DNA of 64,000 bases from Halobacteriales archaeon QS_4_69_34 (lineage in GTDB: Archaea > Halobacteriota > Halobacteria > Halobacteriales > Halococcaceae), in assembly GCA_003021045.1 (NCBI GenBank), contig PXRN01000010.1, positions 1 to 64,000 on the forward strand, written 5' to 3'. Position numbers and translations under genes: made by a program. The notes beneath the pieces were generated by a model. The model had not been told where the DNA came from. It made no database searches and saw only the letters and a program-made list of their open reading frames with translations. This document shows positions 328 to 19,656 of the stretch, in pieces (position 1 is the stretch's first letter; each line of letters begins with the position of its first letter).

Positions 328-545
328 ACCCGGACCACCGTCACCGGCCGCCGATTCCCCGTGCTGTGCTTCGCTCGCGGCCGCCGGGCGAGGACGGCCG
401 GCCCCGCCGCCGGGCCCGTTCGATCTCGGAGCCGACCTGTCGGTCACCAGCCGGACGTCCGTCCCGATCGACAGTGTACCACCCCGATCGCCGGGGGAGA
501 GCAGAGGACGCGTCCATTTATGTTCTCGTCGACCGGAGTACGACC

Positions 546-1676
546 GTGCGTTGTACGACGCTCGCGATCGTGGCGCTCTGTGTCGCCACAGTCGTCGCTC
601 CGGTGACCGCCACGTCGACCACACCGACCGCCGGCGAAACGGTGACGGTCACCGACGTGATCGACGGCGACACGATCGACGTCCGGTACGACAACGGGAC
701 CACGGACACGGTGCGGATGATCGGCGTGGACGCACCCGAGGTGGTCGGCGAGACGAACCCCGACGCGTTCGCGGGCGTTCCGGACACCCGCGAGGGTCGC
801 GAGTGGCTCCGGTCCTACGGCGAGACGGCCAGCGACTACGCGACCGACAGGCTCGAAGGGGAGCAAGTCACGATCGAACCCGACGGAAACGAGCCCGATC
901 GTGACCCGTTCGGCCGGCTGCTCCGCTACGTCTCCGTGGACGGCGACCGCTTCGACCGATCCCTGCTCGAACGGGGGCTCGCGCGGGTCTTCGAGAGCGA
1001 CTTCACGATGCGAGACGAGTTCGAGTCCGTCGAGCACAGCGCCCGGAACGCCGACCGAGGCCTGTGGGGGTTCGAGCCGGCGGGCGGGCGTACCACCCAT
1101 GGAATCACCGTCACGACGGTGCACGCCGACGCGGAGGGGCCCGGCGACGAGCGGGACAACCTCGACGACGAGTTCATCGTGTTCGAAAACGTCCGGACCG
1201 AACCGCTCGATCTCTCGGCGTGGCGGGTCGCGGACGCCGCCGGTCACGTCTACGAGTTCCCCTCGAACTACACGCTCAACCCCGGCGAGCGTGTGACCCT
1301 ACACACGGGCGAGGGAACGAACACGCGGAGCGACCGCTACTGGAAGCAGGGAGCGCCGATCTGGAACAACGGTGGCGACACCATCGTCGTGAGCAACCCG
1401 TACGGCGGCGAGGCCTTGAACACGACCTACGACGGCGACGGTCACCGAAGCGCGTGCAGATCGCCCGCGAGCTTCGATGGTCCCCTCGACGTGGACTGTG
1501 ATGGCCACTACGAGGACGTGAACGGGGACGTCGACCGCGACGCCGTCGACGTACAGCGCCTGTTCGCGACGCTCGACGGCCCGATCGTCGCGGGTACGCC
1601 CGCCGCGTTCGACTTCAACCGTGACGGCACGGCCGATATCGTGGACGTACAACGGCTCTTCACGATAGTCACCTGA
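546..1676 (+). CDS. Secreted thermonuclease-like protein with lamin-tail and dockerin modules
   Basis: This 376-residue protein is predicted to be exported and to cut nucleic acid outside the cell. The GTG at 546 is chosen because it begins a Sec-type signal peptide (RCTTLAIVALCVATVVAPVTA) at once; the frame is open further upstream but that part looks non-coding. Residues about 35-180 resemble the staphylococcal-nuclease fold (VIDGDTIDV, RMIGVDAPE, GRLLRYV, LLERGLARV). Residues about 185-300 resemble a lamin-tail domain (EFIVFENV, LSAWRVADAAGHVYEF, WNNGGDTIVV). The last about 50 residues hold two calcium-loop dockerin-like repeats (DVNGDVDRDAVDVQRLF and DFNRDGTADIVDVQRLF). TNase and lamin-tail pairs are known from haloarchaea; the dockerin suggests attachment to a cohesin-bearing surface partner, which is inference. 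Confidence 0.85.
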   Translation: MRCTTLAIVALCVATVVAPVTATSTTPTAGETVTVTDVIDGDTIDVRYDNGTTDTVRMIGVDAPEVVGETNPDAFAGVPDTREGREWLRSYGETASDYATDRLEGEQVTIEPDGNEPDRDPFGRLLRYVSVDGDRFDRSLLERGLARVFESDFTMRDEFESVEHSARNADRGLWGFEPAGGRTTHGITVTTVHADAEGPGDERDNLDDEFIVFENVRTEPLDLSAWRVADAAGHVYEFPSNYTLNPGERVTLHTGEGTNTRSDRYWKQGAPIWNNGGDTIVVSNPYGGEALNTTYDGDGHRSACRSPASFDGPLDVDCDGHYEDVNGDVDRDAVDVQRLFATLDGPIVAGTPAAFDFNRDGTADIVDVQRLFTIVT

Positions 1677-5769: not shown

Positions 5770-6882
5770 TCATCCCGAGAGGAAGTAGACGGTAGCGTAG
5801 GAGAGCGCGGCCACGGTGATCGCGGCGAGGCCCGTGAGCGCGGCCGTCAACGCGGCGTCGCTGTCGGCTGCTCGCCGCCATCGTCGGCCGTCCCGGCGGT
5901 CGCCCGAGCGCCCCACGCTCGAGGGCCGTCTCGATCCCGGGGCTTCGAGCGGGAGGGTGGCGCCGACGAACCGACGAGCCCGCATCACCAGCGGTGCCGG
6001 CCCGATCGCACCGACCGCGAGCACGCTGAAGACGAACGGGTAGGACGTGTCGAGCGACGGCCAGGGGATCAGCAGTGCCACGCCCGCGTACGTCAGTCCG
6101 AACGCCGCGCGACCGTGGACGTGGTCGCGGAGCCGGCGACCGCACAGACGGCAGTGGACGACCGCGGCGAACCAGATCACCACGAGTTCGATCCCGAACG
6201 CGCCAAGCACCTGCAGGGTCGGGTCGGTGCTCAGCGTCACCCGCCGAGCGAGGGGGGTCGCGTCGAACGGATAGAGGAACGCGGGGGGCGTTCCGGTGAA
6301 CACGTCCCCGAACGGGTGGCTCACGAACCCGAGGAGCGCGGTCGCGAGGACCGTGGTGGCCGGGAAGGCCGCCCGCGCGGCGGCGGTCGCCACCGCCAGC
6401 CCGGCGAGGACGAACGCCGCCGTCACGACCCCGCCGAGGACGCCGCCCTCGATTGCGAGCGCCACGAGCGCGAGCGCGGTCAGGAGTGCGGCGGCCGCAC
6501 GCAGCCGCCAGTCCTCGCTGGGGCGTGTCGCCGTGCGCCGACCGCCGTCTCCGACCCCGGTGGTGACCGCCGCTCCGCTCGCCCCCCGACGGAGTGCGTC
6601 GGCCCACAGCGCGAGCGCGGCCGCGGTGACGACGCCGACGACGAGCGAGTGCGTGATCGTCCGGTGGACGAGCGTGCTAGCGGCCCAGAAGCCGCTCGCG
6701 GCTTCGAGCGGGCCGCTCGCGCCGAGCGCGCCGACGGGCGCGTAGACGACGTCGACGTCCGGGATCGCCGCGAACGCGCCGGCGACGGCCCCGACGAGGA
6801 GCGCACGCTCGCGGGAGCGCCCGAGCGAGCGGGCTCCGAGCCCGGCCAAGGCGAACGCGAGCAGCGCGTGGCCGACGAACAC
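5770..6882 (-). CDS. DUF457 / YdjM-type membrane-bound metal-dependent hydrolase
   Basis: The 370-residue protein fits the DUF457 (LexA-binding, inner-membrane-associated hydrolase-like) family. Features seen are an N-terminal MFVGHALLAFALAGLGARSL, the acidic motif AAIPDVDVVYAP, the histidine motif LVHRTITHSL, and a later HPFGDVFTG; these conserved Asp/His positions are taken to bind metal. About seven to eight hydrophobic segments predict a polytopic membrane protein. The central loop (about 105-145) is Arg/Gly-rich and the C-terminus has a final hydrophobic helix. The physiological substrate of this family is not established. It is not in an obvious operon. Confidence 0.82.
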   Translation of the reverse strand: MFVGHALLAFALAGLGARSLGRSRERALLVGAVAGAFAAIPDVDVVYAPVGALGASGPLEAASGFWAASTLVHRTITHSLVVGVVTAAALALWADALRRGASGAAVTTGVGDGGRRTATRPSEDWRLRAAAALLTALALVALAIEGGVLGGVVTAAFVLAGLAVATAAARAAFPATTVLATALLGFVSHPFGDVFTGTPPAFLYPFDATPLARRVTLSTDPTLQVLGAFGIELVVIWFAAVVHCRLCGRRLRDHVHGRAAFGLTYAGVALLIPWPSLDTSYPFVFSVLAVGAIGPAPLVMRARRFVGATLPLEAPGSRRPSSVGRSGDRRDGRRWRRAADSDAALTAALTGLAAITVAALSYATVYFLSG

Positions 6883-7252
6883 GGGGGGTCTACGCGAACG
6901 GCGACGATAAGTCCAGCGAGAAACGCGACACGGAGGGCGCGATTACCGCGCGATCGCGAGGCGAACCGTCGCCGGCGCGCTACGGAGATGCCCGCCACAG
7001 TACTCATCGGGGAACACGCCGCTGTGCCGCCGAATACGACGGCAGTGTGCCGCGACTGGTTCGGCCGGCCGTCGGGCGTTCACCGGGGTGGTCCTCCGCC
7101 GGCCCGCTCACTGCCCTCCGACAGTCACCCGCGACGATGCAGGCGACACGCCTATGGTGTGCGCCGCGGATGGAAGACGCGACGGCGTTCGCGCGGTGCG
7201 CCGGACCGCCGATAGGGGACGTTCGTCGGACGTCGCCGTGGGGATCACGATT
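6883..7252. other. Intergenic region before the 6-phosphogluconate dehydrogenase gene
   Basis: This 370-base stretch separates two divergent genes. The open frame of the downstream gene extends back to about 7088, but codon content there is Arg-rich and unlike the gene itself. I see no convincing small gene, RNA gene or repeat here; it must hold the promoters of both flanking genes. Confidence 0.5.
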
Positions 7253-8308
7253 ATGTCAGGAGAGAACCTCGAACTCGGCATCGTCGGACTGGGAGCGATC
7301 GGCGGCAACCTCGCAAAGCAGGCCGTCGAAAAGGACGTGCGGGTCGTGGGGCTGGACACGGCCGAGAAACCCGACCTCGAGGAGCTGGGCGTCGAGGTCT
7401 ACGACGCCGGCGAGTACGGGGCACTCGCCGAGGCGCTCGGCCCGCCGCGGGCCGTCTACCTCTCGCTGCCCGCCGGCCCGCTCGTCGACGACGAACTCGA
7501 CGACATCCTCGGCCACCTCGAGGAGGGCGACGTCCTCATGGACGGGGGCAACTCCTTCTGGCGCGACTCGATCCGCCGCGAGGAGCGGGCGTGGGAGGAG
7601 GGTGTCTACTACCTCGATACGGGGACGAGCGGCGGCCCGCCCCGGGCCAGCGAGGGGGCCTGCTTCATGGTCGGCGGGCGCGAGGCGGGCTTCGAGATCG
7701 CCGAACCCGTCCTCGACCTGCTGTCGGTCGAGGGCGGCCTCCTCCACGTCGGCCCGCCGGGGAGCGGCCACTTCGTCAAGCTCGTCCACAACGGCATCGA
7801 GTTCGGGATGCTCCAGTCGATCGCCGAGGGCGTCGAGCTGCTCGAAGCGGGCCAGTTCGACGTCGACACGGCCGACGTGTTCCACAACTGGTCGAACGGC
7901 GCGGTCATCGAGAGCTGGCTGGTCGAGCTCATGGAGAAGGGCCTCCGGAAGGAAGACCAGTCCGCGGACGCCCCGGACTTCGAGGACATCCCGAACTACA
8001 TCGAGGATACGGGCGAGGTCAACTGGCTGGTCCAGGAGGCGTTCAAGGGCGAGACGCCGATCCCGGTGATCAGCCAGTCGGTGATCGAACTGTTCAAGTC
8101 CCGCGGCCAGCAGCGCCACGCGCCCCGCGCGATCGCGCTGATGCGCCACGGCTTCGGCACCCACCCCTTCGGGGAGGACGAGACCATCAGAAAGGAGCGC
8201 TTCGAGGGCCGCGTCGGCAACGAACCCCGCCACGAACTCCGGGACGACGAGGACGTCGACCCGGTCGGGCCGCTCGCCGAGGACGGGCCGGACGGGGGAG
8301 ACGACTAG
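7253..8308 (+). CDS. gndA: 6-phosphogluconate dehydrogenase, decarboxylating (short archaeal type)
   Basis: The enzyme oxidatively decarboxylates 6-phosphogluconate to ribulose 5-phosphate. Residues 8-22 (LGIVGLGAIGGNLAK) are the NAD(P) Rossmann motif; MDGGNSFWRDS and DTGTSGGPPRASEGACFMVGG match the 6PGDH substrate region, and GSGHFVKLVHNGIEFGMLQ holds the catalytic lysine. The 351-residue length is closer to the short archaeal form than to the about 470-residue bacterial form, with an acidic tail (about 320-351). ATG 7253 is chosen because the glycine-rich motif follows directly. The ribose-5-phosphate isomerase gene follows 66 bases later on the same strand, so the two probably make ribose 5-phosphate together. 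Confidence 0.92.
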   Translation: MSGENLELGIVGLGAIGGNLAKQAVEKDVRVVGLDTAEKPDLEELGVEVYDAGEYGALAEALGPPRAVYLSLPAGPLVDDELDDILGHLEEGDVLMDGGNSFWRDSIRREERAWEEGVYYLDTGTSGGPPRASEGACFMVGGREAGFEIAEPVLDLLSVEGGLLHVGPPGSGHFVKLVHNGIEFGMLQSIAEGVELLEAGQFDVDTADVFHNWSNGAVIESWLVELMEKGLRKEDQSADAPDFEDIPNYIEDTGEVNWLVQEAFKGETPIPVISQSVIELFKSRGQQRHAPRAIALMRHGFGTHPFGEDETIRKERFEGRVGNEPRHELRDDEDVDPVGPLAEDGPDGGDD

Positions 8309-8374
8309 AGCGACCGAACGCAGCGAGAGGGCACGAGCTGTAAATCAGTACGACGACAGGAATCCCACGGGACG

Positions 8375-9253
8375 ATGGCCAAGGAATTCACCTACACCAC
8401 GAACGACGGCGAGGAGATACGCGAGTGGGCAGAGAGCGAGAGCGACGTTCTCGACTCGGCACGCGAGCGCCTCGACGAGCGCGGCGTTTCGCTGGCCGGC
8501 GAGGAGATCGAAGAGTGCATCGAGGTCATCCCGTCCCCACGGCGGATCAAGAGCGGCGCGGAGGGCGTCTTCGACGAGCGCCGGCGGCGGGGCGGCGAGC
8601 GCGCCGCCCGGGAGGTCGTCGAGAGCGGGATGGACGTCGGGCTCGGCACCGGGAGCACGACCGCGTGGGCGGTCGCCGAGATCGGTCGGCTGCTCCGGGC
8701 GGGCGAACTCGAAGGGGTTCGCGGCGTCGCCACCTCCCTCCAGAGCCACGAGCTCGCGAAGGAGGCCGAGATCCCCCTCACGGGACTCGACGAGGTCACC
8801 GAACTCGACGTGACGATCGACGGCGCGGACCAGTACTCCGAGTCCGAGCCCACCGTGATCAAGGGCGGCGGCGGGGCCCACGCCCGCGAGAAGGTGATCG
8901 ACGCGATGGCTGACGAGCTGGTGATCACCACCGACGAGGAGAAGGCCACGGACCCGCTCGACTTCCCCGTCCCCGTGGAGGTGATGCCCGACGCGCGCGC
9001 GGTCGTCGCCGAACGCGTCCGCGAGGCCGGCGGCGAGCCCGAACTCCGGATGGCCGAGCGCAAGGACGGGCCACTCTTTACCGCGAACGGCAACCTCGTG
9101 CTCGACTGTGACTTCGGCGGGATCGACGACACCGCGGGAACGGCACGCGACCTCGAAACGATCCCGGGCATCCTCGAACACGGCATCTTCCAGGACATGG
9201 TCGATGCGGTCTACCTCGGCACCAGCGAGGACGTCGACGTGCTACAGTTCTGA
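8375..9253 (+). CDS. rpiA: Ribose-5-phosphate isomerase A with N-terminal extension
   Basis: The C-terminal about 228 residues are RpiA: ERAAREVVESGMDVGLGTGSTTAWAV, a GTGSTT phosphate-binding loop, VTIDGADQ with the catalytic acid region, VIKGGGGAHAREK, and LVLDCDFGGIDD. The enzyme interconverts ribulose 5-phosphate and ribose 5-phosphate. The first about 65 residues (MAKEFTYTTNDGEEIREWAE, then a charged helix and EEIEECIEVIPSPRRIKSG) are not part of RpiA as known from other organisms, where the protein starts near the helix before GLGTGST. They read in the same frame with normal codon use and an ATG after AT-poor DNA, so a fusion or added domain is likely. An internal start near the GTG/ATG at residues 75-85 is possible. 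Confidence 0.9.
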   Translation: MAKEFTYTTNDGEEIREWAESESDVLDSARERLDERGVSLAGEEIEECIEVIPSPRRIKSGAEGVFDERRRRGGERAAREVVESGMDVGLGTGSTTAWAVAEIGRLLRAGELEGVRGVATSLQSHELAKEAEIPLTGLDEVTELDVTIDGADQYSESEPTVIKGGGGAHAREKVIDAMADELVITTDEEKATDPLDFPVPVEVMPDARAVVAERVREAGGEPELRMAERKDGPLFTANGNLVLDCDFGGIDDTAGTARDLETIPGILEHGIFQDMVDAVYLGTSEDVDVLQF

Positions 9254-9352
9254 GCGCTGCGGATCCGATCGATCTCGCTGTGGCCCCGAAACTGTCCGCT
9301 CGCGCGCCGCGCGAGCGGTTCACCGCGAGCGAGCGCAGCGAATGAGCGGGAG

Positions 9353-9372
9353 TTTTTAGTCCAGGTTTTTAC
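9353..9372 (+). repeat. Dispersed intergenic motif TTTTTAGTYCAGGTTTTTAC, copy 1
   Basis: The 20-base motif occurs here (with C at the variable position) and again at 47097-47116 (with T). Both copies follow GC-rich CGAGCG/GAGCGGG-type sequence. It lies just downstream of rpiA and just left of the inverted-repeat element, so it could act in transcript ending on the plus strand because of its T runs; that role is inference. Confidence 0.6.
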
Positions 9373-9379
9373 GAGGACC

Positions 9380-9392
9380 GTGTCATAGAATA
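9380..9392 (+). repeat. Left terminal inverted repeat
   Basis: GTGTCATAGAATA is the exact reverse complement of bases 10303-10315, defining the left end of the candidate element. Confidence 0.7.
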
Positions 9393-9519
9393 CGTCTCAC
9401 ACCCGCTATCCAGCGATTATACAGTCCCCATTTCGCCTGTAGCCCAGTAATTCCACCAGTCACCGATTTCATCCATAATTGAGCGCAACATTCATGATCT
9501 TCCCGGATGTATCAACACC

Positions 9520-10079
9520 ATGTACAGGCGGCGGTTCCTTGCAGGCACTACTGGACTCGTGCTGTTGGGGGCTGTCTCAGCAGGGGTGGGTCGGCCGACG
9601 GTGGCCGACCCACGACCTCTCACCCGATGGACGGGCCGTTCGATGCTAAGCCGGCGGCGACAGCAGTAGTCGGCGAGTTGTCGTCGCTTGACGAACCGGA
9701 CAAACCGCACTCGATCATCGTCTGGAACGCTGCCCCGAGGGCGAGGACCATCGGCGTTCGTCTCATCAGCTCCAACGGTGACGAGCCCGTGTTCCAGGAG
9801 CAGTACGACCTCGCTTCAAACAGATATGTCGAGTGGTCGCTAGCGATGGCGGGGTATTTCGATGTTGAGGTAGCCATCGACGGGAGCGAGTTCAAGACGG
9901 CTGACGCCGAGATTCATCCGTCACTCATCGACTGCAACGGATCGTCGACGTCGATCCGAGTTGGGGAAGACGGTGAACTCAGCTCGAAGACGACCAGCAC
10001 GGCAATGGGCTGCCCTGATGACTTTGGAGTCGATCCGAACCGAACCGTCGGACCCGAGGTTACGATGACTGGCGGTTGA
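9520..10079 (+). pseudogene. Secreted hypothetical protein gene with a frameshift after the signal peptide
   Basis: ATG 9520 opens a frame encoding a Tat-like signal (MYRRRFLAGTTGLVLLGAV) that runs on to a stop near 9667. The mature part, from about 9627 (MDGPFDAKPAATAVVGELSS, then SIIVWNAAPRARTIGVRLIS and a Ser/Thr-rich acidic tail), reads one frame over and ends at TGA 10079. Loss of one C in the CACCCG tract near 9623 would explain the shift, because an added C joins the two parts in one frame. The mature domain looks like a beta-rich extracellular haloarchaeal protein of unknown function. A perfect 11-bp hairpin lies inside the 5' part. It sits inside the inverted-repeat element as apparent cargo. 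Confidence 0.6.
9586..9613 (+). repeat. Perfect 11-bp-arm hairpin inside the cargo gene
   Basis: Arms GTGGGTCGGCC (9586-9596) and GGCCGACCCAC (9603-9613) are exact reverse complements around the loop GACGGT. It lies between the signal peptide and the mature part of the secreted protein, about 12 bases before the inferred frameshift site. Confidence 0.75.
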
Positions 10080-10302
10080 AAACGCATCTTCTCGGACGGC
10101 CAGAGCGCGCCGGACGACGGACCACCTATGCTCGTGGATGGAGCCGCCGGGCAGTACTGCCCCTCGCCGACTGGCTCCAGCATCAATCGCTCTCAGCGTG
10201 CCGCCATGAGCTCGCCCTGATGTGGGGGGGTCTACAGTAGTAAGCGAGCCTCACACCGTGAAATCCCCCGCTCTATGGCGATTCACCGGAGCCGTTGAGA
10301 AC

Positions 10303-10315
10303 TATTCTATGACAC
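10303..10315 (-). repeat. Right terminal inverted repeat
   Basis: TATTCTATGACAC is the exact reverse complement of bases 9380-9392 and defines the right end of the candidate element. Confidence 0.7.
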
Positions 10316-10397
10316 CCTCTTTACAAGGAGTGGTGCGCGAGCTCGACGAGGGGAGCGAGGGACGCGAGCGCACCCGACGCAGGGAAAAACGTGGGTG

Positions 10398-11201
10398 CTA
10401 GATCGCGGTCCAGCCGCCGTCGACGAACACCAGTTCGCCGGTGACGTAGGACGCCGCCTCGCTGGCGAGAAAGAGCGCCGCGCCGGCGTTGTCCTCGGGA
10501 CGGCCCGCGCGACCGAGCGGCACGGGCTTGATGAAGCCACCGTCGCCGTCGCCGCCCTCGCCGGCGGCCGCTCGGGCCTCCTCTGACCACCCCTCGGAGA
10601 ACTCGGTGGCGATCTGGCCCGGCGCGATCGCGTTCACCCGGATGCCGTGTTCGGCGAGTTCGAGCGCGGTCCCCTTGGTGATCATCTCGATCGCGCCCTT
10701 GGTCGCGTCGTACTGGACCTGGTCGTGCTGGGCGACCGCCGAGGAGATCGAGGCCGTGTTGACGACACATCCCGGATCGCCGCGCTCGATCATGTCCCGG
10801 GCGGCGACCTGCGTGCCGAAGAAGTACCCCCGGACGTTGGTCCCGAGGAGGGTGTCGAAAGCGCCCTGATCGACGTCGAGAAACGACTCTGAGTGTTGGA
10901 CGGCAGCGTTGTTCACCATCACGTCCACGCCCCCGAAATCGCGGGCAGCCTCGACGACCGAGGCGAGTTCGTCGGGTTCGGCGGCGTCGGCCTCGGCGTA
11001 CTCGGCGGTGCCGCCCGACGCCGCGATACGCTCGTGGGTCGGCACGTCCTCGTCGTCCATCTTCGGCTCCTCGCGCACGTCGGCGTTGATCACCGTCGCG
11101 CCCGCCGCGCCGAAGCCGAGGGCGATGGCGCGACCGATACCGGCGCTCCCGCCCGTGACGATCACCGTCTCGTCGCCGAAGTCGAAGTCGACGGTCCCCA
11201 T
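10398..11201 (-). CDS. Short-chain dehydrogenase/reductase (SDR), classical type
   Basis: The 267-residue enzyme is a classical SDR that oxidises or reduces an alcohol/carbonyl with NAD(P). It shows the cofactor motif VTGGSAGIGRAIALGFG, NNAAVQ (NNAG-like), the catalytic serine region VVNTASISS, YDATKGA (YxxxK), and INAIAPGQIATEF-like VNAIAPGQIATEF, ending VTGELVFVDGGWTAI. ATG 11201 is chosen because an ATATTAAG box sits about 30 bases upstream; the frame is open well beyond but that part is not SDR-like. Residue Asp after the second strand (NADVREEP) hints at NAD preference. Substrate unknown; it diverges from the exported MmgE/PrpD operon, which may mean related metabolism but proves nothing. 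Confidence 0.9.
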   Translation of the reverse strand: MGTVDFDFGDETVIVTGGSAGIGRAIALGFGAAGATVINADVREEPKMDDEDVPTHERIAASGGTAEYAEADAAEPDELASVVEAARDFGGVDVMVNNAAVQHSESFLDVDQGAFDTLLGTNVRGYFFGTQVAARDMIERGDPGCVVNTASISSAVAQHDQVQYDATKGAIEMITKGTALELAEHGIRVNAIAPGQIATEFSEGWSEEARAAAGEGGDGDGGFIKPVPLGRAGRPEDNAGAALFLASEAASYVTGELVFVDGGWTAI

Positions 11202-11226
11202 GCTCGATCCGTTTCGATCGCCGTGG

Positions 11227-11234
11227 CTTAATAT
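11227..11234 (-). promoter_or_regulatory. TATA-like box of the SDR gene
   Basis: ATATTAAG on the minus strand is centred about 30 bases before ATG 11201, which supports that start and a leaderless mRNA. Confidence 0.6.
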
Positions 11235-11643
11235 GCTCGCCACCCGATCAGGCACCACAGAGTCGGTGTCCGAGCCCCTCAGCCGGGTGGCTACCGCACC
11301 CTTGACGATGGGTCCGCACCCGGGAGAGCCACGCAGTTGAACGGCGGTGCTCGTCACCAGTCTTCTTCGGTGAGTGAGCGACTCCCCGATAGGGGTGCAG
11401 TTACCCCTCCCCCCGGGACTGACGACGCAGTAGGAAAGAACCGCGAGGGGCCGAGGAAACACCCCCCTTCCGTCCCGAAGCCCGGTCCCGGCCCGGGGTC
11501 TGTCTCCCTGTGGCACTCTTCCTCGCCGAGAGGGGCGGGAGCCGAGATCCACGAATTCACCGACTGGCCGGATCCACAGCCGGCTCGGTCGGAAATTACG
11601 AAAGTAAACTCCGAAAAACCGTGAAGATGTGTTATCCATTACG

Positions 11644-11651
11644 ATTTATAA
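11644..11651 (+). promoter_or_regulatory. TATA-like box of the MmgE/PrpD operon
   Basis: ATTTATAA lies about 30 bases before ATG 11679. The spacing supports ATG 11679 over the upstream in-frame ATG at 11655 as the true start. Confidence 0.65.
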
Positions 11652-11678
11652 TGCGTGAAGTGCGATCCCATCCAACCG

Positions 11679-13820
11679 ATGCAGGACCCAAAGACGCGAG
11701 CGAACGCTGGGTCGAAACTGAATCGTCGGACAGTGCTCAGATCGGGTGGCGTTCTCGCCTCGCTGGCAGTGTTCGGGCAGGAGGTTACCGGATCGGCCGA
11801 AGGGACGGAGGACGACGGCGACGTCCCCGAAGAGACTCGCACCGTCGAAGCGGGTTTGGAGGCGTTCGCCACCAAGTGGGACGCGGCCGGCGGGTACATC
11901 GTGAACACGAAGTTCGGCCGCTACGTTGCGAACACGACGATCAACGTCAGCGTCGCCGACGACCCCCGTGCCTACGCAGTCGAGCTCGGCCCTGAAGGGG
12001 GCGCGGTCGTTGCATCGGGTGAAGATCCACGAGCGCACGCGACCCTGACGGCTCCGGAGGACGATCTGCTCGCCATCCTCTACGGCGAGTTCTGTCCGTA
12101 CGCCCCGGCCACCCGCGGCGATTCGTTCGCGCCGAAATCGGAAGTCAACTACGCCTCCTTGTTCGGGCTTATACTCTACGTGTTCGCTCATCTGCCGGTC
12201 AGTCTCGCACACGACCCCGGCTACAACGTCGAAAACCTCCTCGGCGGGTTAGACCGGCGGGCTGGGACCACCGTCGACTGTGGCGGTGGTCCGTCCGGCA
12301 CCTCGTTCGAGCCACGCCTCCCCTCTCGACGGGGCGTGGAGGGAACCGCCGACGCGCCGAACGTTACGGAGGAACTGGCGATCCGGGTCGCCCGGACCAC
12401 TTACGACGACCTTCCCGAAGGGGTCCGTCGCGCCGCGAAAGAGCAGCTAAAGAGCATCATCGGTGTCTGCTACGCGGCGACGGAGCTCGAACCCTCTCGG
12501 AAGTTCGTCGGTGCCGTCGAATCGATGCAGGGTAGCGGGGAAGCGACGGCCATCGCCGGCGACCGGACCTTCAGCGCAGATGCCGCGACCGCTGGCATGC
12601 TCAACGCGTATCTCGCACAGATGCTCGAATGGGAGGACTTCACCTGGTATGCCCACACTGGAAGCGCGACCGTCACCACGGCGCTTGCGGCCGCCGAGGC
12701 CGCTGGCGCGTCCGGAGAGGAGCTCCTGACAGCCATCGCACTCGGTGACGAAATCGCAGGCCGGGTCGGGGAATTCGCTTCTGATCCGACGAGTCTCGGC
12801 CAGTCACTCCCCGTTCATCAGGCAGAGTGTCCGTTCGTCGCGGGGAAGCTCCTGCTCAACGAGGGTGACCGTAGCGACGACGTGAAGGTGCGTGACTTGC
12901 AGTCCGCCGCCGGCTTCGCGGCCATCCAACCCGAGCGAACCGCCGTCAGCGGGTGGCCCTCCGATGCAAAAGGGCTCATCGCCGGTTCGCCGGTTCGAAC
13001 GTCCATCGAAGCCGCCCAGTACACGCAGGCGGGGCTCGTCGGCCGCCGAGACCTCATGGAAAACCCCGCTGGACTCTTTTACTCACTGACCGACGTGGCG
13101 AGCCCGCAGGACATGAAACTCGCCTACGAGGGCCTCGGCGAGAACTGGTATCTCACCGGCAATGGCGTGGAGGTGGGCCCGCAGTTCTACAACAAACGCT
13201 TCGCCACCAACGGCTTCTTCCAGGCGGCCGTCGACGCCGCGCTCGACGTACGCGAACAGATGATCGAAGACGGGGTCGATCCTGCCGAGAGCGTCGAGTT
13301 CATCGACGAGGTCGAACTCCACATGAACGCGGCGATGGCCGGGACGGGCACCATCTTCTCGGCGGGCAGGCCATCGATCCTCGACGAGGTCGACGATCGC
13401 GACGACGTCACGTACACGACGCTGCTATACGAGGCGTACTACGCCATCGCGGCGGCCCTGCTCGAAGGCGATCTGACCCATCGCCAGTACCGTCAGGAGT
13501 TGGTCGACGACCCGCGCCTCAGGGAGCTGTTCGGAAAGACGGAGGGCGCAGTGGATCTATCGGTCGGTGACTTCGGGGGGAAGGTGATCGTCAGGATCCC
13601 AAACGACGAATTCGGGGAGACCCGTCGGTCGCTGAAAGACCGCGCCTACTCCTCGACAGTCACCTGCATCCGTTCGGAGGCGGTCGACGACGGGTTCGGC
13701 CGGGAGAAACTCCGTCGGGCGGCCGTCGACACCATCGGCGACCGCTGGAGGGAGATCGACCGTGCCGTCGACCGTATCGAGACCTACGACGATGTCAACA
13801 GCTTCACGACGGTGCTATGA
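11679..13820 (+). CDS. Tat-exported fusion of an SCP2-like domain and an MmgE/PrpD-family domain
   Basis: The 713-residue protein begins with a Tat-type signal (NRRTVLRSGGVLASLAVFG). Residues about 45-170 resemble an SCP2 sterol-carrier fold (LEAFATKWDAAGGYIVNTKF, ATLTAPEDDLLAILYGEF), which binds lipophilic ligands. Residues about 215-700 match the MmgE/PrpD (2-methylcitrate dehydratase) superfamily: LAIRVARTTYDDLPEGVRRA, NAYLAQMLEWEDFTWYAHTG, TTALAAAEAAGASGEELLTA, LVGRRDLMENPAGLF, and a late KVIVRIPNDEFGE. Family members are normally cytosolic dehydratases or decarboxylases, so export is unusual. The stop overlaps the next start by four bases (ATGA), which indicates a translationally coupled operon with the subunit-3-like and GMC genes. 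Confidence 0.8.
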   Translation: MQDPKTRANAGSKLNRRTVLRSGGVLASLAVFGQEVTGSAEGTEDDGDVPEETRTVEAGLEAFATKWDAAGGYIVNTKFGRYVANTTINVSVADDPRAYAVELGPEGGAVVASGEDPRAHATLTAPEDDLLAILYGEFCPYAPATRGDSFAPKSEVNYASLFGLILYVFAHLPVSLAHDPGYNVENLLGGLDRRAGTTVDCGGGPSGTSFEPRLPSRRGVEGTADAPNVTEELAIRVARTTYDDLPEGVRRAAKEQLKSIIGVCYAATELEPSRKFVGAVESMQGSGEATAIAGDRTFSADAATAGMLNAYLAQMLEWEDFTWYAHTGSATVTTALAAAEAAGASGEELLTAIALGDEIAGRVGEFASDPTSLGQSLPVHQAECPFVAGKLLLNEGDRSDDVKVRDLQSAAGFAAIQPERTAVSGWPSDAKGLIAGSPVRTSIEAAQYTQAGLVGRRDLMENPAGLFYSLTDVASPQDMKLAYEGLGENWYLTGNGVEVGPQFYNKRFATNGFFQAAVDAALDVREQMIEDGVDPAESVEFIDEVELHMNAAMAGTGTIFSAGRPSILDEVDDRDDVTYTTLLYEAYYAIAAALLEGDLTHRQYRQELVDDPRLRELFGKTEGAVDLSVGDFGGKVIVRIPNDEFGETRRSLKDRAYSSTVTCIRSEAVDDGFGREKLRRAAVDTIGDRWREIDRAVDRIETYDDVNSFTTVL

Positions 13821-14572
13821 CCCGGAAAGTCCCGCGTCGAGGCGTCCTCCAGGGAATGGGCGCACTCGGTATCGGCATCGGCGGCGGCATGGGCTCACCA
13901 CAGCAGCTGCTCGAAGGACTCGAAGCGGCACTCGCCGACGTCGACCGATCGGACCACGATCCACATACGCTGGCCACGTGGCGAGCGGTCGTGGACGCGG
14001 TCATCCCGGAGACGCCCGAGCTCGGCGACGAACTCGGTGAGGAACACGTCCCCGGTGGACTCGATGTCGGACTCGAAGTGGGGCTCATCGAGTTCATCGA
14101 CGCGTTCGTCTCCCCGGAGGCCGCCGTTCCGCGCGTGACCGCCGTGGACGGGGAGACGGCGCCGCTCTCCGAGTCGATCACCGTGATACTCGACGCCGCC
14201 GCCACGGAGCTACTCGCACGCGGCGGTAACCGCGACGAGCCGAAACGACGGTTCGAGGATGGGGGGCCGTTCACCACGCTCTCACGGCGCGATCGGTTCC
14301 GAGCGATGGCCGACATCGAAGAGCGAGGCGAAAAGAGCGGTGGATTCGTCGTCGCGATCGTCGCTGCCTTCCCAGCCATTCTCTATTACAGCGACTGGGA
14401 AGGGTACGACGATTTCTCGAAACCGCCCAGCGAGCGAACCTTCGAGGAGGACGTCCAAGGGTGGCGACAGACCAGCTACGAAGGCCCGGCCGACGGCGCT
14501 GCCGTCCTTCGTGGGTACGAGGTCGACGAATTCGAAGAGACGTACGCCGAGGAGGGCCCGGAGGAAGGATGA
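13817..14572 (+). CDS. Tat-signal protein resembling gluconate 2-dehydrogenase subunit 3
   Basis: The 251-residue product starts with MTRKVPRRGVLQGMGALGIG, a twin-arginine signal. The mature part has the pattern HTLATWRAVVDAVIPETPELGDE, which resembles the start of the gluconate 2-dehydrogenase gamma subunit family (subunit 3), small partners that help assemble or export GMC flavoenzymes. A central AAATELLARGG and a late FVVAIVAAFPAILYYSDWEG with Tyr/Trp-rich tail (FEEDVQGWRQTSYEG) also fit. The start overlaps the previous stop by four bases and the GMC gene follows 58 bases later. Its likely job is to carry the signal-less GMC subunit through Tat (hitchhiking); this is inference from the family and gene order. 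Confidence 0.72.
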   Translation: MTRKVPRRGVLQGMGALGIGIGGGMGSPQQLLEGLEAALADVDRSDHDPHTLATWRAVVDAVIPETPELGDELGEEHVPGGLDVGLEVGLIEFIDAFVSPEAAVPRVTAVDGETAPLSESITVILDAAATELLARGGNRDEPKRRFEDGGPFTTLSRRDRFRAMADIEERGEKSGGFVVAIVAAFPAILYYSDWEGYDDFSKPPSERTFEEDVQGWRQTSYEGPADGAAVLRGYEVDEFEETYAEEGPEEG

Positions 14573-14630
14573 AAACGACACTACCCGACTGTAGCACCGA
14601 GAGAGGCGAGGACGACGGAGGCGAGATGCC

Positions 14631-16373
14631 ATGAGTGTCGAAAGCTACGACGTGGTGATCGTCGGAGCGGGTGGTGACGGTCCAGCGGCCGCGAAGCGCC
14701 TCGGTGAGCAGGGAATCGACACGCTCGTGCTCGAAGCGGGACCGTGGTACGGTAACGAGAACTGGCCGAAGCCGACGGAGAAACCGGGATCGGTCAAGGC
14801 ATCGTCGGACCCGGCGGACCTCTCGGGTCAGCTGTTGGACGAGCAGTTCACGACCCGTGAACTCGAGATGATCGAGAAGCTGATCTGGGGACCGGCGGAT
14901 GTCGACCGGCCGGTGTGGTTCCGCGAACAGCCCGAAGACGGACTCGTTCTTCAGGTTGCGGGGGTTGGCGGGACGACGCTCCACTACACCGGCTGCCACC
15001 CGCGGGCGTATCCACACGCCATCGACGATGGCGACGGCTGGCTCATCGATTACGACGACCTGCTTCCCTACTACCGGGAGGTAGAGGACCAGCTACACGT
15101 ATCTCCAGCGCCCACAACGCCCAAGGAAGAACTCTATTATCAGGGAGCGGAGAGTGCGGGCTGGGATCTACTGACGAGCAAAGACGTTACCAGCCCGGGA
15201 TATCGCCCACAGCCGAACGCGCTACTGCGCCCGGACGAGCGCCTCGAAGGTGATTACCAGGGAGACTTTTCGTACCCGGACGTCGAGGGCGATACGCTCG
15301 CTGGCGTCGAGATCCCCGGCAACCCCCACCCGAGTGGGGCACCCTACGAAGAAAAGGCGAAGAAATCGAGCGCGATCGGGTTCGTCCCCGACGCGATGGA
15401 GACGGGTAACGTAACGATCCGACCCAACGCGTTCGTCAAGCAGATCCTCACCCGACCAAGTCTCGACGGTCCCGAGGCGACCGGAGTGCGCTACCGCGAC
15501 ACCTGGAATGAAGAGACTCACCGGGTCGAAGCGGAAGCGGTCGTACTCGCGGCGGGAGCTATCGAAACCCCGCGGTTGTGGCTCAACTCCGACCTCCCCG
15601 ACAACGGGTGGATCGGCAAAGGGATGACCATTCACTACGGCGACGTGGTGATCGGTATGTTCGAAGAGGAGACGCTCGAACGCCGGCTCGGTCGACGAAC
15701 CCTCGATCCCGACAAGGGACAGCAGATCGCCGCCCGATTCGACTACCCCGGACTCGGCGGGTTGCAGACCTTCGGCGGCGCACCGGGAACGACGGCACTC
15801 TCCTCGTATGCTGGCTCGACGGCCGGTTTCGCCGACAGCGTACTGGAAGGCGGCGTCGAAGCCGATCCGGACGCACCGTGGGACTCCCGCGGACGGATCG
15901 CCGGGAAGCAGCTCAAACGGCTCATGGCCGCCTACGACCGATCGCTCGGCATCCAGTGTATGACCGACGACCGGCCACACAAGCACAACGGCGTTACGCT
16001 GTCGAGCTACGAGGACGAGCACGGTCCGGTGCCGGACGTGACCTACGAACCGAGCGACGAGGACCTACACCGACGGGACGAGCTGATGGAGATCGCGGCG
16101 GAGATCTTGCGCGAGGCAGGCGCGTCGTTCGTCCACCGATTGGACGCCGGTCCGAGCGCCATCCACATCCACTCGACGATGCGCATGGGGTACGTCGCCG
16201 ACGAGGCGTGTGAGGCGTACGACGTCTCTCGGCTGTTCATCGCCGACCACTCGGTGTTACCGAACTCGCTTGGCGGTCCCAATCCGACGAACACCGGACA
16301 GGCGCTCGCAACGCGGACGGCTGACCGCATTGTCGAGCGATATTTCTCCGATCGAACGGACCCTATCGCATAG
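14631..16373 (+). CDS. GMC-family FAD-dependent oxidoreductase
   Basis: The 580-residue flavoprotein belongs to the glucose-methanol-choline group. Residues 6-25 (YDVVIVGAGGDGPAAAKRLG) form the FAD Rossmann motif; VAGVGGTTLHYTGCHPRAYP is the second GMC motif; VVLAAGAIETPRLWLNS is the GMC signature 2; and the C-terminus has the catalytic histidine region HIHSTMRMG plus FIADHSVLPNSLGGPNPTNTG. Such enzymes oxidise alcohols, sugars or polyols and pass electrons to quinone or cytochrome. It has no signal peptide, while both upstream genes do, so co-export as a complex is plausible. GGAG before ATG 14631 could act as a ribosome site. Substrate unknown. Confidence 0.9.
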   Translation: MSVESYDVVIVGAGGDGPAAAKRLGEQGIDTLVLEAGPWYGNENWPKPTEKPGSVKASSDPADLSGQLLDEQFTTRELEMIEKLIWGPADVDRPVWFREQPEDGLVLQVAGVGGTTLHYTGCHPRAYPHAIDDGDGWLIDYDDLLPYYREVEDQLHVSPAPTTPKEELYYQGAESAGWDLLTSKDVTSPGYRPQPNALLRPDERLEGDYQGDFSYPDVEGDTLAGVEIPGNPHPSGAPYEEKAKKSSAIGFVPDAMETGNVTIRPNAFVKQILTRPSLDGPEATGVRYRDTWNEETHRVEAEAVVLAAGAIETPRLWLNSDLPDNGWIGKGMTIHYGDVVIGMFEEETLERRLGRRTLDPDKGQQIAARFDYPGLGGLQTFGGAPGTTALSSYAGSTAGFADSVLEGGVEADPDAPWDSRGRIAGKQLKRLMAAYDRSLGIQCMTDDRPHKHNGVTLSSYEDEHGPVPDVTYEPSDEDLHRRDELMEIAAEILREAGASFVHRLDAGPSAIHIHSTMRMGYVADEACEAYDVSRLFIADHSVLPNSLGGPNPTNTGQALATRTADRIVERYFSDRTDPIA

Positions 16374-16686
16374 AAGCACTGGTTAGTCGACAGATCGATA
16401 TCTCGTCGCTCAAATCCGATCGCGAGTGTGATGCTCGATCCGCTCTGTGACGGTTCAGTATCGACATGTACCGGTCGTCCTCCACGTATCGCGGGTGACG
16501 GCGAGAGGAGAGCGAACCGCCGACGACACGGACCGCCGGTGCGGACGAGCGAGCGGGCCCGCCCGCGAGCAGAAGCCGAGCGCGCCGGACTTTGAGCCGT
16601 CGTTGCTGTCGAGCTCGCTGGGCCTTCCCTACACGCGACCGTGGAGCCCACCGAGCTTTTTCACGGTCGCGGGCGGCGCGTGTGGC
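16374..16686. other. Intergenic region without recognised genes
   Basis: The 313 bases between the GMC gene and the ABC ATPase gene contain no convincing gene. The ABC frame is open across most of it but with Arg/Ser-rich content and no ABC similarity. A weak T-rich stretch (about 16656-16661) may be the promoter of the ABC pair. Confidence 0.4.
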
Positions 16687-17499
16687 ATGGCTTCCGAACC
16701 CGCGATCGAAACCAGCGGTCTCTCCAAGCGATACGGCGGGACGACCGCCGTCGAATCGCTCGACCTCTCGATCCCCTCGGGGGCGGTCTATGGCTTCCTC
16801 GGCCCCAACGGCGCGGGCAAGACGACCACGATGGAGATGCTCACCACGCTCACCCGGCCGACCGCGGGGACCGCGAGGGTCGCGGGCGAGTCGATCGACC
16901 GGCGCGAGCGGGTCGTCCCGGCGATCGGCTACCTCCCCGAGGAGCCGCCGCTGTTCGAGGAGCTCACCGGGCGCGAGCAGCTCTCCTATATCGCGGGGCT
17001 GCGCGACCTCCCCGAGCCCGCGGCCACGAAACGGATCGACGACCTGCTCGCGCGCTTCGACCTCGCCGAGGACATCGGCAAGCGCATCGGGGCGTACTCG
17101 AGGGGGATGAAACAGAAGACGGGCATCGTTCAGGCGCTGCTCCACGAGCCCCGCGTGCTCTTTCTCGACGAGCCCACGAGCGGGCTCGATCCGCGGGCCG
17201 CGCGAGTGGTCCGGGAGACGATCGCCGACCTCACGGCCGACGAGGCCACCATCTTCCTCTCGACGCACATCCTCCCCGTAGTCGACGAACTCGCGGACAC
17301 CGTCGGCGTCCTCGCCGACGGCGAACTCGTCGCCGAGGGCGCACCCGAGGCCCTCAAGCGCCGCGCCGAGAGCGACGGGGAGCGCACGCTCGAAGACGTC
17401 TTCCTCGACGTGACGGGCGAGGACGCCTACGCTGGTGCCCCCGACACCACGAACCCCGAAAACGAGGGGCCGGACGCGACGCGGGAGCGGTCAGCGTGA
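16687..17499 (+). CDS. ABC transporter ATP-binding protein
   Basis: The 270-residue ATPase has every ABC hallmark: Walker A GPNGAGKTTT, the signature YSRGMKQKTGIVQALL, Walker B VLFLDEPTSGLD, and the switch histidine (FLSTHILPVVDEL). The short Q-loop region (YLPEEPPLFEELTGREQL) is typical of the ABC-2/CcmA-type exporters. ATG 16687 is preferred because similarity begins directly after it. The last about 35 residues are an acidic Asn/Glu/Thr tail. The stop overlaps the GTG start of the permease gene by three bases, so the two are co-translated as an exporter; its substrate is unknown. Confidence 0.92.
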   Translation: MASEPAIETSGLSKRYGGTTAVESLDLSIPSGAVYGFLGPNGAGKTTTMEMLTTLTRPTAGTARVAGESIDRRERVVPAIGYLPEEPPLFEELTGREQLSYIAGLRDLPEPAATKRIDDLLARFDLAEDIGKRIGAYSRGMKQKTGIVQALLHEPRVLFLDEPTSGLDPRAARVVRETIADLTADEATIFLSTHILPVVDELADTVGVLADGELVAEGAPEALKRRAESDGERTLEDVFLDVTGEDAYAGAPDTTNPENEGPDATRERSA

Positions 17500-19208
17500 G
17501 CGCCGCCGGCTCCGGGCCGTCCGAAAGGAGTCGAGGGGACTGGCGAAATCGGAAGGGCTCCAGCCCCGTTCCGGACCTCGGCCACGCGGTGCTGTACGCC
17601 CGAACGGACCTCCGCCGCAAGCGGCGCTCGCTGTCCGAGAATACCCTCCAGCTGGTCGCGCTCGCCGTCGTGGGACTGTTCGGCGCGGTCTTCGTCGTCG
17701 CCGCGTCGTTCGGCGCATATCTCGCCGGCGAAGCCCTGACCGCGGGGAGCCTCGACGCCCCGCGCTCAGCGACTTCGGGGGCGCGCTCGGCCGCGGCGGC
17801 GCTATGGCTCGGGATCGCCGCGGTCGTCGCGCTCAGAACCGTCACACAGAACGCGACGCTCGACGGGACCGGCGGGCTGCTGACGACGGTTTCCCACCGA
17901 GACGTCGCCGCCGGCGTCGCGCTGAGCGAGTTCTTCGGCCTGCTCGCGTACCTCGGGCTCCCCGCCGTGGCGGTCGCGGTCGCCTTCGCGTTCGGCGCCG
18001 GCTCGGCCGCGAGCGCCCTGCTCGTGCTCCTTGCGATCGGCTCGATCGCCGCGACGGGTCTGCTCGCGGGCGTCGTCGTCGGGTTCGCCGTCAGGAACCT
18101 TACCGTCCGCTCGGCGTTCGTCGCGCGCCACCGGGCCGCGATCTGGATCGTTCTGTTCGTCGCCTACCTCGGCGCGTTCGTCACCGGCGTGGCCGAGTCG
18201 GTGACCGCGCCCCTTCTGTCGGTCGCAAGGGGGCTGCCGATCGCGTGGTACGGCGACCTCGCGCTCGCGGCAGTCGCCGGAAACGCGAGCGCCGTGCGGG
18301 CCGGGTTCGCGGTCGGGCTGACGGTGCTCGGGACACCGCTGCTGGTCGCGCTCCTCGTCCGGCTCGCGGGCGTGCTCTGGTACGCCGACCCGGTCGCGCC
18401 CGCGGCCGGAAGCGGGTCGAGTGCGGATCGGTCGACGGTGGATCGCCGAACCGCGCTGACCGGCGGCGTCTTCGACCGCGTGGCGCCGCGCCCGGTGGCG
18501 TCAGTGGCGGCCAAGAGCTGGCTGCGCGCCACGCGCGCACCGATCAAGCTCGTCTTCGTCGCCTACCCGGCGTTCCTGCTCGTCGGGCCGCTCTCGGACG
18601 CCGTCGAGACGGGCGCGGTGTCGGCGTATCTCGTGGTACTGCTCGCGGTCTACGGGGCGTGGGCGACGGGCGCGGCCTTCACCCTCAACCCGCTTGGCGA
18701 CGAGGGCGCGGTCGTGCCCGCGACCGTGCTCTCGGGGCTCGACGGTCGGCAGTTCGTCGCCGGACTCCTCCTCTGTGGGGCGGCGGTCGGCGCACCGGTC
18801 ACCGGGGGAGCGGTGCTGCTCGCCGGGCTCCTGAGTCCCCTCTCGGCCCTCGGGAGCGCCCTCGTCGCGGCCGTCGCGGTCGCGCTCTGTGTGGGGGCGG
18901 CGGGGCTCGCCGTGGGCGTCGGGACGGCGTTCCCGCGGTTCGAGGCCGCGCGGATCACCCGGAGCCGGCGCGCGGTCGTGCCGAGCCTGACGGCCTTCGC
19001 GACCTACTCGCTCGTCCTGCTGGTCGGCTCGGTGCCCGGGCTGCTCGCCCAGCTCCCGCCGGTGGCCGAGTTCGTGGGCCGTATCGCGGACGTCTCGGTA
19101 CTGACAGTCGGGCTCGCCGGACTGGCCGCGACGCTCGTCCTCGCCGGCGGGGCCGGCTGGCTCGGGTTCCGGTACGCCGCGCGGTCGTTCGAGGAGTACA
19201 CGCTCTGA
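17496..19208 (+). CDS. ABC-2-type transporter permease
   Basis: The 570-residue product has about twelve hydrophobic segments (for example LQLVALAVVGLFGAVFVVAA, VAVAFAFGAGSAASALLVLL, VAAVAVALCVGAAGLAVGVG) and a charged N-terminus of about 45 residues with an RKRR cluster before the first helix. GTG 17496 overlaps the stop of the ATPase gene, which fixes the start. It forms the membrane part of the exporter with the upstream ATPase. Length fits two fused six-helix halves, so one chain may serve where other systems need two. Substrate cannot be inferred. Confidence 0.85.
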   Translation: MSAAGSGPSERSRGDWRNRKGSSPVPDLGHAVLYARTDLRRKRRSLSENTLQLVALAVVGLFGAVFVVAASFGAYLAGEALTAGSLDAPRSATSGARSAAAALWLGIAAVVALRTVTQNATLDGTGGLLTTVSHRDVAAGVALSEFFGLLAYLGLPAVAVAVAFAFGAGSAASALLVLLAIGSIAATGLLAGVVVGFAVRNLTVRSAFVARHRAAIWIVLFVAYLGAFVTGVAESVTAPLLSVARGLPIAWYGDLALAAVAGNASAVRAGFAVGLTVLGTPLLVALLVRLAGVLWYADPVAPAAGSGSSADRSTVDRRTALTGGVFDRVAPRPVASVAAKSWLRATRAPIKLVFVAYPAFLLVGPLSDAVETGAVSAYLVVLLAVYGAWATGAAFTLNPLGDEGAVVPATVLSGLDGRQFVAGLLLCGAAVGAPVTGGAVLLAGLLSPLSALGSALVAAVAVALCVGAAGLAVGVGTAFPRFEAARITRSRRAVVPSLTAFATYSLVLLVGSVPGLLAQLPPVAEFVGRIADVSVLTVGLAGLAATLVLAGGAGWLGFRYAARSFEEYTL

Positions 19209-19656
19209 GGCGGTACCCGTGTGCGTAGACCGCGGCGGTAGAACGGACGGGACGGACCGAAGCGAATCGTGGATCGCGAGTCACGTACAGCGTCGACCGC
19301 GAGTCACGGGACACGCGAGAAACCGCGACCGCACTGTGGCTCAGCCCACGAGCCTCTCCGGTCGATTCATGCCGCTCGGGCTCTCCACTACCACGCTACC
19401 GCAGCCCTCGCGGCGTTCATCCCTCGCGCGAGATCGCGACACGGCGGCGTGCCGGCCGTGCCACACGGCACTCCACGCCGCGAGTCGGGCCCTCGATCAC
19501 GACCGCCCGGAGACCGAGCGGTGACGGAGACGCTAGGGAGGGAAGGGAGCTCGGTGAGCGCTTCTCCCGTCGAGAGCGACGATCGGACGTCGGTCGCCTC
19601 CGACGAGTCGGTCCGTCGCCGGTGGGGTCTTGTGTCCCGGCTGCCTCACCCGACCC
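19209..19656. other. Intergenic region with a dispersed ACACGCGAGAAACCGC motif
   Basis: The 448-base gap holds no convincing gene. At 19311-19326 it carries ACACGCGAGAAACCGC followed by ACCGC and, about 25 bases on, CCACGAGCCTCTCC. The same block recurs at about 23769-23818 in another intergenic gap (there CCACGAGCCTCCCC). This looks like a dispersed non-coding repeat rather than a remnant of a gene. Confidence 0.5.

Follow-up and report, generated by a model that had tools for sequence, protein, structure and literature searches.

The window analyzed here, a 64,000-nucleotide stretch of contig PXRN01000010.1 (C10) of Halobacteriales archaeon QS_4_69_34, carries a three-gene operon that in our reading encodes an extracytoplasmic enzyme set. 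The first gene codes for a protein in which an MmgE/PrpD enzyme module is joined to an additional N-terminal domain (hereinafter the fusion), the second for a small subunit-3-like protein (S3), and the third for a flavoenzyme of the GMC family. We propose, with moderate confidence, that the GMC protein is exported via S3 and the fusion via its own signal, with the chemistry of the system taking place outside the cell. The parts are of known kinds. Novelty lies in an apparently exported MmgE/PrpD lineage with an added domain, in the operon that joins it to a GMC enzyme of the hitchhiker type and, likely, in how broadly an unannotated S3-GMC pair occurs among haloarchaea.

Most elements of the locus stand as a preliminary description had read them: the three genes follow each other in tight order on the forward strand, the first two coupled by an ATGA overlap (13817-13820), and the gap from S3 to the GMC gene is 58 nt. 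The twin-arginine motifs attributed to the first two products (NRRTVLRSGG in the fusion and RRGVLQGMGALG in the second protein) are both present, and the third is indeed a GMC protein devoid of a signal peptide, with GMC_oxred_N and GMC_oxred_C both above the Pfam cut-off and a GxGxxG-like start for binding flavin adenine dinucleotide (FAD). An in-frame GTG at 11655 offers an alternative start for the fusion; we prefer the ATG at 11679 because the N-termini of its relatives are short.

Predicted export signals and a dockerin-bearing paralogous cluster

The pattern RRx[VFML]L occurs within the first 20 residues of all seven fusions that we recovered, as against 22 of 349 called genes in the fetched neighborhoods (6%, scored over the first 40 residues). 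In the window copy the RR motif is accompanied by a hydrophobic stretch, as in substrates of twin-arginine translocation (Tat), and S3 displays RRGVLQ near its N-terminus. More weight is carried by a paralogous cluster elsewhere in this genome (locus L051, contig C24), in which dockerin-type modules are borne by an S3, a fusion, a glycosidase of the 6-hairpin type and also a GMC protein, the last starting straight at its FAD-binding motif. We inventoried 25 dockerin matches in this genome and read their N-termini: all full-length dockerin proteins have a Tat- or Sec-like start except the C24 GMC protein, counting one start seen in an adjacent frame and two Tat-like starts that the search pattern did not catch and that were judged by eye, and with one protein cut by a contig end. 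Of soluble background genes, 35% pass when judged as permissively and 12% under a strict rule. A dockerin on a signal-less GMC protein that lies beside a Tat-motif partner is what would be expected under hitchhiker export, and it suggests, as an independent pointer, that such enzymes are carried out piggy-back. Taken as a prediction from sequence, the exported nature of the operon is well supported.

Table 1. Features of the fusion-S3-GMC operon and of the paralogous cluster.
Feature	Coordinates	Strand	Contig	Basis and remarks
Fusion gene (MmgE/PrpD fusion, 713 aa)	11679..13820	+	C10	Open reading frame call and Pfam
S3 gene (subunit-3-like, probable hitchhiker partner of GMC, 251 aa)	13817..14572	+	C10	Open reading frame call
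GMC flavoenzyme gene (580 aa)	14631..16373	+	C10	Open reading frame call and Pfam
Twin-arginine motif NRRTVL of fusion	11721..11738	+	C10	Sequence; RR motif in 7/7 fusions
Conserved N-terminal domain of fusion (~180 residues)	11820..12362	+	C10	SCP2-like only via sub-threshold match at 11931-12089
MmgE_PrpD_N domain (PF03972)	12369..13094	+	C10	98.9-100.8 bits, E 3.6e-28, cut-off 32.1
MmgE_PrpD_C domain (PF19305), profile matched in part	13200..13556	+	C10	39 bits, E 9.6e-10, cut-off 32.1
L051 cluster of Tat- and dockerin-bearing proteins	6818-19511		C24	Sequence

The L051 cluster also contains a 514-residue Tat-motif protein (17967-19511) that matches neither Pfam nor NCBIfam and whose end, read by eye, resembles a dockerin, and further downstream an Opp-type transporter cluster, judged by sequence only. 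In the window itself a gene at 474-1676 (+) codes for what is probably an exported nuclease, in which SNase, lamin-tail and dockerin-type domains are combined. A cohesin was not found in this genome, and we accordingly rejected the label of a cellulosome for the dockerin cluster.

Domains and active sites of the three proteins

MmgE/PrpD enzymes are normally intracellular. Their presence in the fusion, which the preliminary description had submitted to a profile check, is borne out by both domains scoring above the Pfam cut-off; its relatives match the same domains, with the C-terminal domain of the C24 copy falling under the cut-off, and a profile built from four of the fusions hits the solved cis-aconitate decarboxylases at E 3e-20 across both domains. 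We mapped the active site using D93, T97, H103, H159, K207 and H277 of ACOD1, which we take to be its functional residues. In the alignment to ACOD1, H326 and K431 of the fusion are the equivalents of H103 and K207 and are invariant in the fusions, as is a K-R pair equivalent to K272-R273, even though the seven sequences diverge to about 40% identity. The equivalent of D93 is E or D, the placement of that of H159 is uncertain, that of T97 is F (W in two relatives) and that of H277 is N or D. The full ACOD1 set is hence not found in the fusion, and because it is only partly kept we designate the protein a member of the MmgE/PrpD family and not an ACOD or PrpD. Specific labels as a decarboxylase or a methylcitrate dehydratase were rejected, given the replaced equivalents of T97 and H277.

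The N-terminal ~181 residues are kept across all seven fusions. The SCP2 domain that had been proposed for this region stays below the Pfam threshold: PF02036 scores 16.9 bits in the window copy (19.8 in a search of the genome) under a cut-off of 21.3, and Pfam finds no such match in the six relatives. Against two groups of haloarchaeal SCP2 proteins hhalign returned P values of 0.042 and 0.24, matches to PDB profiles were at chance level, and a structure model of the fusion built from four sequences (predicted local distance difference test, pLDDT, 35) offered no fold evidence for SCP2. These comparisons are at most suggestive of an SCP2 identity for the domain.

S3 of the window matches no Pfam family. 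We compared it with 22 relatives, every one of which lies beside a GMC gene; PF13618 (Gluconate_2-dh3) is detected in 4 of these 23 sequences at E <=1, the best value being 0.0035. The S3 profile aligns co-linearly with 18 haloarchaeal PF13618 proteins at E 4.5e-6 with the signals included and at 0.0041 without them, as compared to 0.29 and 0.47 for controls. These values are suggestive of a homology to Gluconate_2-dh3 that stops short of family membership. The earlier label of a gluconate dehydrogenase subunit 3 therefore survives in part: the resemblance, the adjacency to a GMC gene and the Tat signal stand, while the family itself is not matched in Pfam. Structure prediction gives S3 a helical core of high confidence (>90), and RefSeq names the S3-type partner 'hypothetical protein' in three named plasmids.

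In the GMC protein the catalytic His512 and Asn551 are invariant across 39 compared sequences, and His118, which aligns to the FAD-linked histidine of FAD-dependent glucose dehydrogenase (FAD-GDH), is present in 30 of them. Among proteins of solved structure, its best matches are the catalytic subunit of FAD-GDH and the large subunit of fructose dehydrogenase.

Distribution, mechanism and alternative explanations

Close relatives of the GMC protein occur in 51 of 394 haloarchaeal genomes, and S3 lies directly upstream of it in nearly all neighborhoods read, across several families. The fusion is rare, with seven copies in five genomes of two families: two in the genome of the window (C10 and C24), two in G410 and one each in G424, G426 and G457, the latter four genomes belonging to another family. 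In two scans, 84,980 species genomes yielded no further fusion, although with short peptide patterns by which near relatives may be missed, and a plasmid search with the fusion recovered only bacterial MmgE/PrpD proteins aligning over the MmgE part at 26-27% identity. The seven fusions form a single clade (support 100/99), within which the window copy and that of locus L105 are sisters (99/97); the GMC proteins of the same two loci fall in a common clade of seven (99/98). Among the seven, only these two loci display the fusion-S3-GMC operon, with gene spacings of ATGA or 1 nt; as L105 lies in a genome of another family, a survey in which the three genes are never neighbors, named in the preliminary description as counter-evidence, is not what we obtained. 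In the C24 cluster an S3 gene and a frame-broken GMC gene diverge from the fusion, with a second S3-GMC pair ~3 kb downstream. This pattern suggests an old cassette that has in part been scattered, not a fixed unit.

Several side observations concern these and related loci. The frame-broken GMC genes (about 6880-8570 in L051 and 8587-10284 in L105) both come from draft assemblies and might reflect sequencing error or pseudogenes. At L053 (5000-8485, contig C19) there is an S3-GMC pair in which S3 has no signal and the GMC gene shares 14 nt with a gene for archaeosortase A; the latter two genes are not adjacent in the relatives read. On plasmids of Halorientalis and Haladaptatus (L242, L243) one form of the S3-GMC pair lies beside genes for an adenylate-forming enzyme and an IclR regulator, neighbors that hint at an organic-acid substrate.

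We envisage the following course of events. The GMC protein would fold with FAD in the cytoplasm, bind S3 and leave as a pair through Tat on the S3 signal, like the bacterial FAD-glucose dehydrogenase, a step that is fairly well supported. Judging by its sequence, the fusion would be exported separately on its own Tat signal. Outside the cell the GMC enzyme, going by its family, might oxidize a CH-OH group; the MmgE/PrpD domain might abstract a proton from a related carboxylate, either hydroxylated or unsaturated, in a dehydration, isomerization or decarboxylation; and the N-terminal domain of the fusion might bind the substrate or a partner. A sugar acid is favored as a candidate substrate by the genes immediately upstream of the operon (window 7253-11201), which code for 6-phosphogluconate dehydrogenase (gnd), ribose-5-phosphate isomerase A (rpiA) and a glucose-dehydrogenase-like short-chain dehydrogenase/reductase, and by the glycosidase of the C24 cluster; set against it, the neighbors at C24 and L105 include an enoyl-CoA hydratase, a beta-keto acid cleavage enzyme and an acyl-CoA ligase. 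The ribose-5-phosphate isomerase A has an additional N-terminus of ~65 residues. Only as a rather unlikely extension do we consider that the GMC enzyme, its hitchhiker and the MmgE/PrpD enzyme act in series on one extracellular substrate, with dockerin modules, in the absence of a classical cohesin, binding some versions to one another or to the cell surface.

A number of observations weigh against the extracytoplasmic reading as a whole. Four of the seven fusions have no adjacent S3-GMC pair, though each of their genomes encodes four GMC copies; the reading frame of the L105 GMC gene is interrupted; and both the genome of the window (2.57 Mb, 79% complete) and G410 are incomplete assemblies. 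S3 remains below Pfam-level membership in Gluconate_2-dh3, its model finds no PDB match by Foldseek, and some of its relatives have no Tat motif, with one clade bearing no signal at all. The GMC protein has three scattered cysteines only and no 3Fe-4S cysteine cluster. Genes for an electron-transfer subunit were not seen in its vicinity, nor was a cytochrome gene recognized among the nearest neighbors. The replacement of the T97 and H277 equivalents belongs to the same side of the balance.

Some of these facts would also fit a self-contained exported dehydrogenase formed by S3 and GMC, next to which an independent exported enzyme, the fusion, lies in a few genomes; the two would have regulation or history in common but not a pathway. 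We regard this as a lesser but serious possibility: it is consistent with the S3-GMC pair occurring without a fusion in almost all of the 51 genomes and with the four fusions lacking the pair, whereas the near-contiguous operon in two families, the pairing of those two operons in both the fusion and GMC trees and the third locus (C24), where a fusion and S3-GMC pairs share one cluster, argue for a closer tie. All five fusion genomes hold GMC copies, a point against it that is tempered by most relatives in those genera doing so too. The replaced active-site residues would also fit an MmgE/PrpD part that is non-catalytic and forms, along with the N-terminal domain, an exported ligand-binding or structural protein; the invariance of the K207 and H103 equivalents and of the K272-R273 pair across such divergent sequences makes this improbable. 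More improbable still is a cytoplasmic location of all three proteins, with RR motifs that mislead. To this the short, weak hydrophobic part of the window S3 signal and the signal-less clade of S3 relatives would lend themselves, but the universal RR motif of the fusions against its low background, and the dockerins on all three kinds of paralogs, a module whose other bearers in this genome have export signals, speak for the extracytoplasmic reading.

Comparison with known systems

A search of the open literature found nothing on MmgE with SCP2, on MmgE/PrpD with export or on GMC with haloarchaea, which is weak evidence of absence with subscription journals outside its scope. The nearest parallel to the S3-GMC pair is the bacterial FAD-GDH of Burkholderia cepacia (PDB 6a2u), whose hitchhiker gamma subunit exports the signal-less catalytic subunit (PMC6719666); for that gamma subunit, a DALI search by the authors of the structure gave no similar protein (PMC6719666). 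Both systems have a signal-less GMC gene beside a small partner with a Tat signal, the FAD-loop histidine and the His/Asn catalytic pair. Unlike FAD-GDH, neither the 3Fe-4S cysteines nor the multihaem cytochrome subunit typical of direct-electron-transfer enzymes are seen in the window GMC protein and its nearest neighbors, S3 is not recognized by Pfam or fold search, and the operon adds a predicted exported MmgE/PrpD fusion. A canonical pair of Gluconate 2-dehydrogenase subunit 3 (PF13618) and GMC is encoded in the same genome (L206, 4711-7034). There, too, a small RR-motif protein adjoins the GMC gene, and its family aligns co-linearly with S3; in contrast, S3 itself matches nothing in Pfam and has longer inserts, and the GMC proteins associated with it cluster tightly in a haloarchaeal group of their own, with 27% identity to the canonical (L206) GMC. 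The S3-GMC pair looks like a widespread archaeal counterpart of dehydrogenases exported by a hitchhiker, and a signal-less GMC protein that naturally bears a dockerin allows this export route to be tested directly in an archaeon.

Haloarchaeal polysaccharide-degrading clusters encode Tat-exported enzymes with type I dockerins (PMC10963439). L051 resembles them in that dockerin modules occur on predicted Tat-exported enzymes within a single cluster; it differs in that its dockerins are on redox and MmgE/PrpD proteins and no cohesin was found in the genome, while the operon proteins of the window have no dockerin. Finally, the fusion shares both domains and the equivalents of H103, K207 and K272-R273 with cis-aconitate decarboxylase, MmgE/PrpD and IDS-epimerase enzymes (PDB 6r6u, 7bra, 1szq, 2hp3). 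Unlike these, it is predicted to be exported, has an added N-terminal domain and has the T97 and H277 equivalents replaced; such a monophyletic exported lineage, if true, would extend the MmgE/PrpD family to the cell surface.

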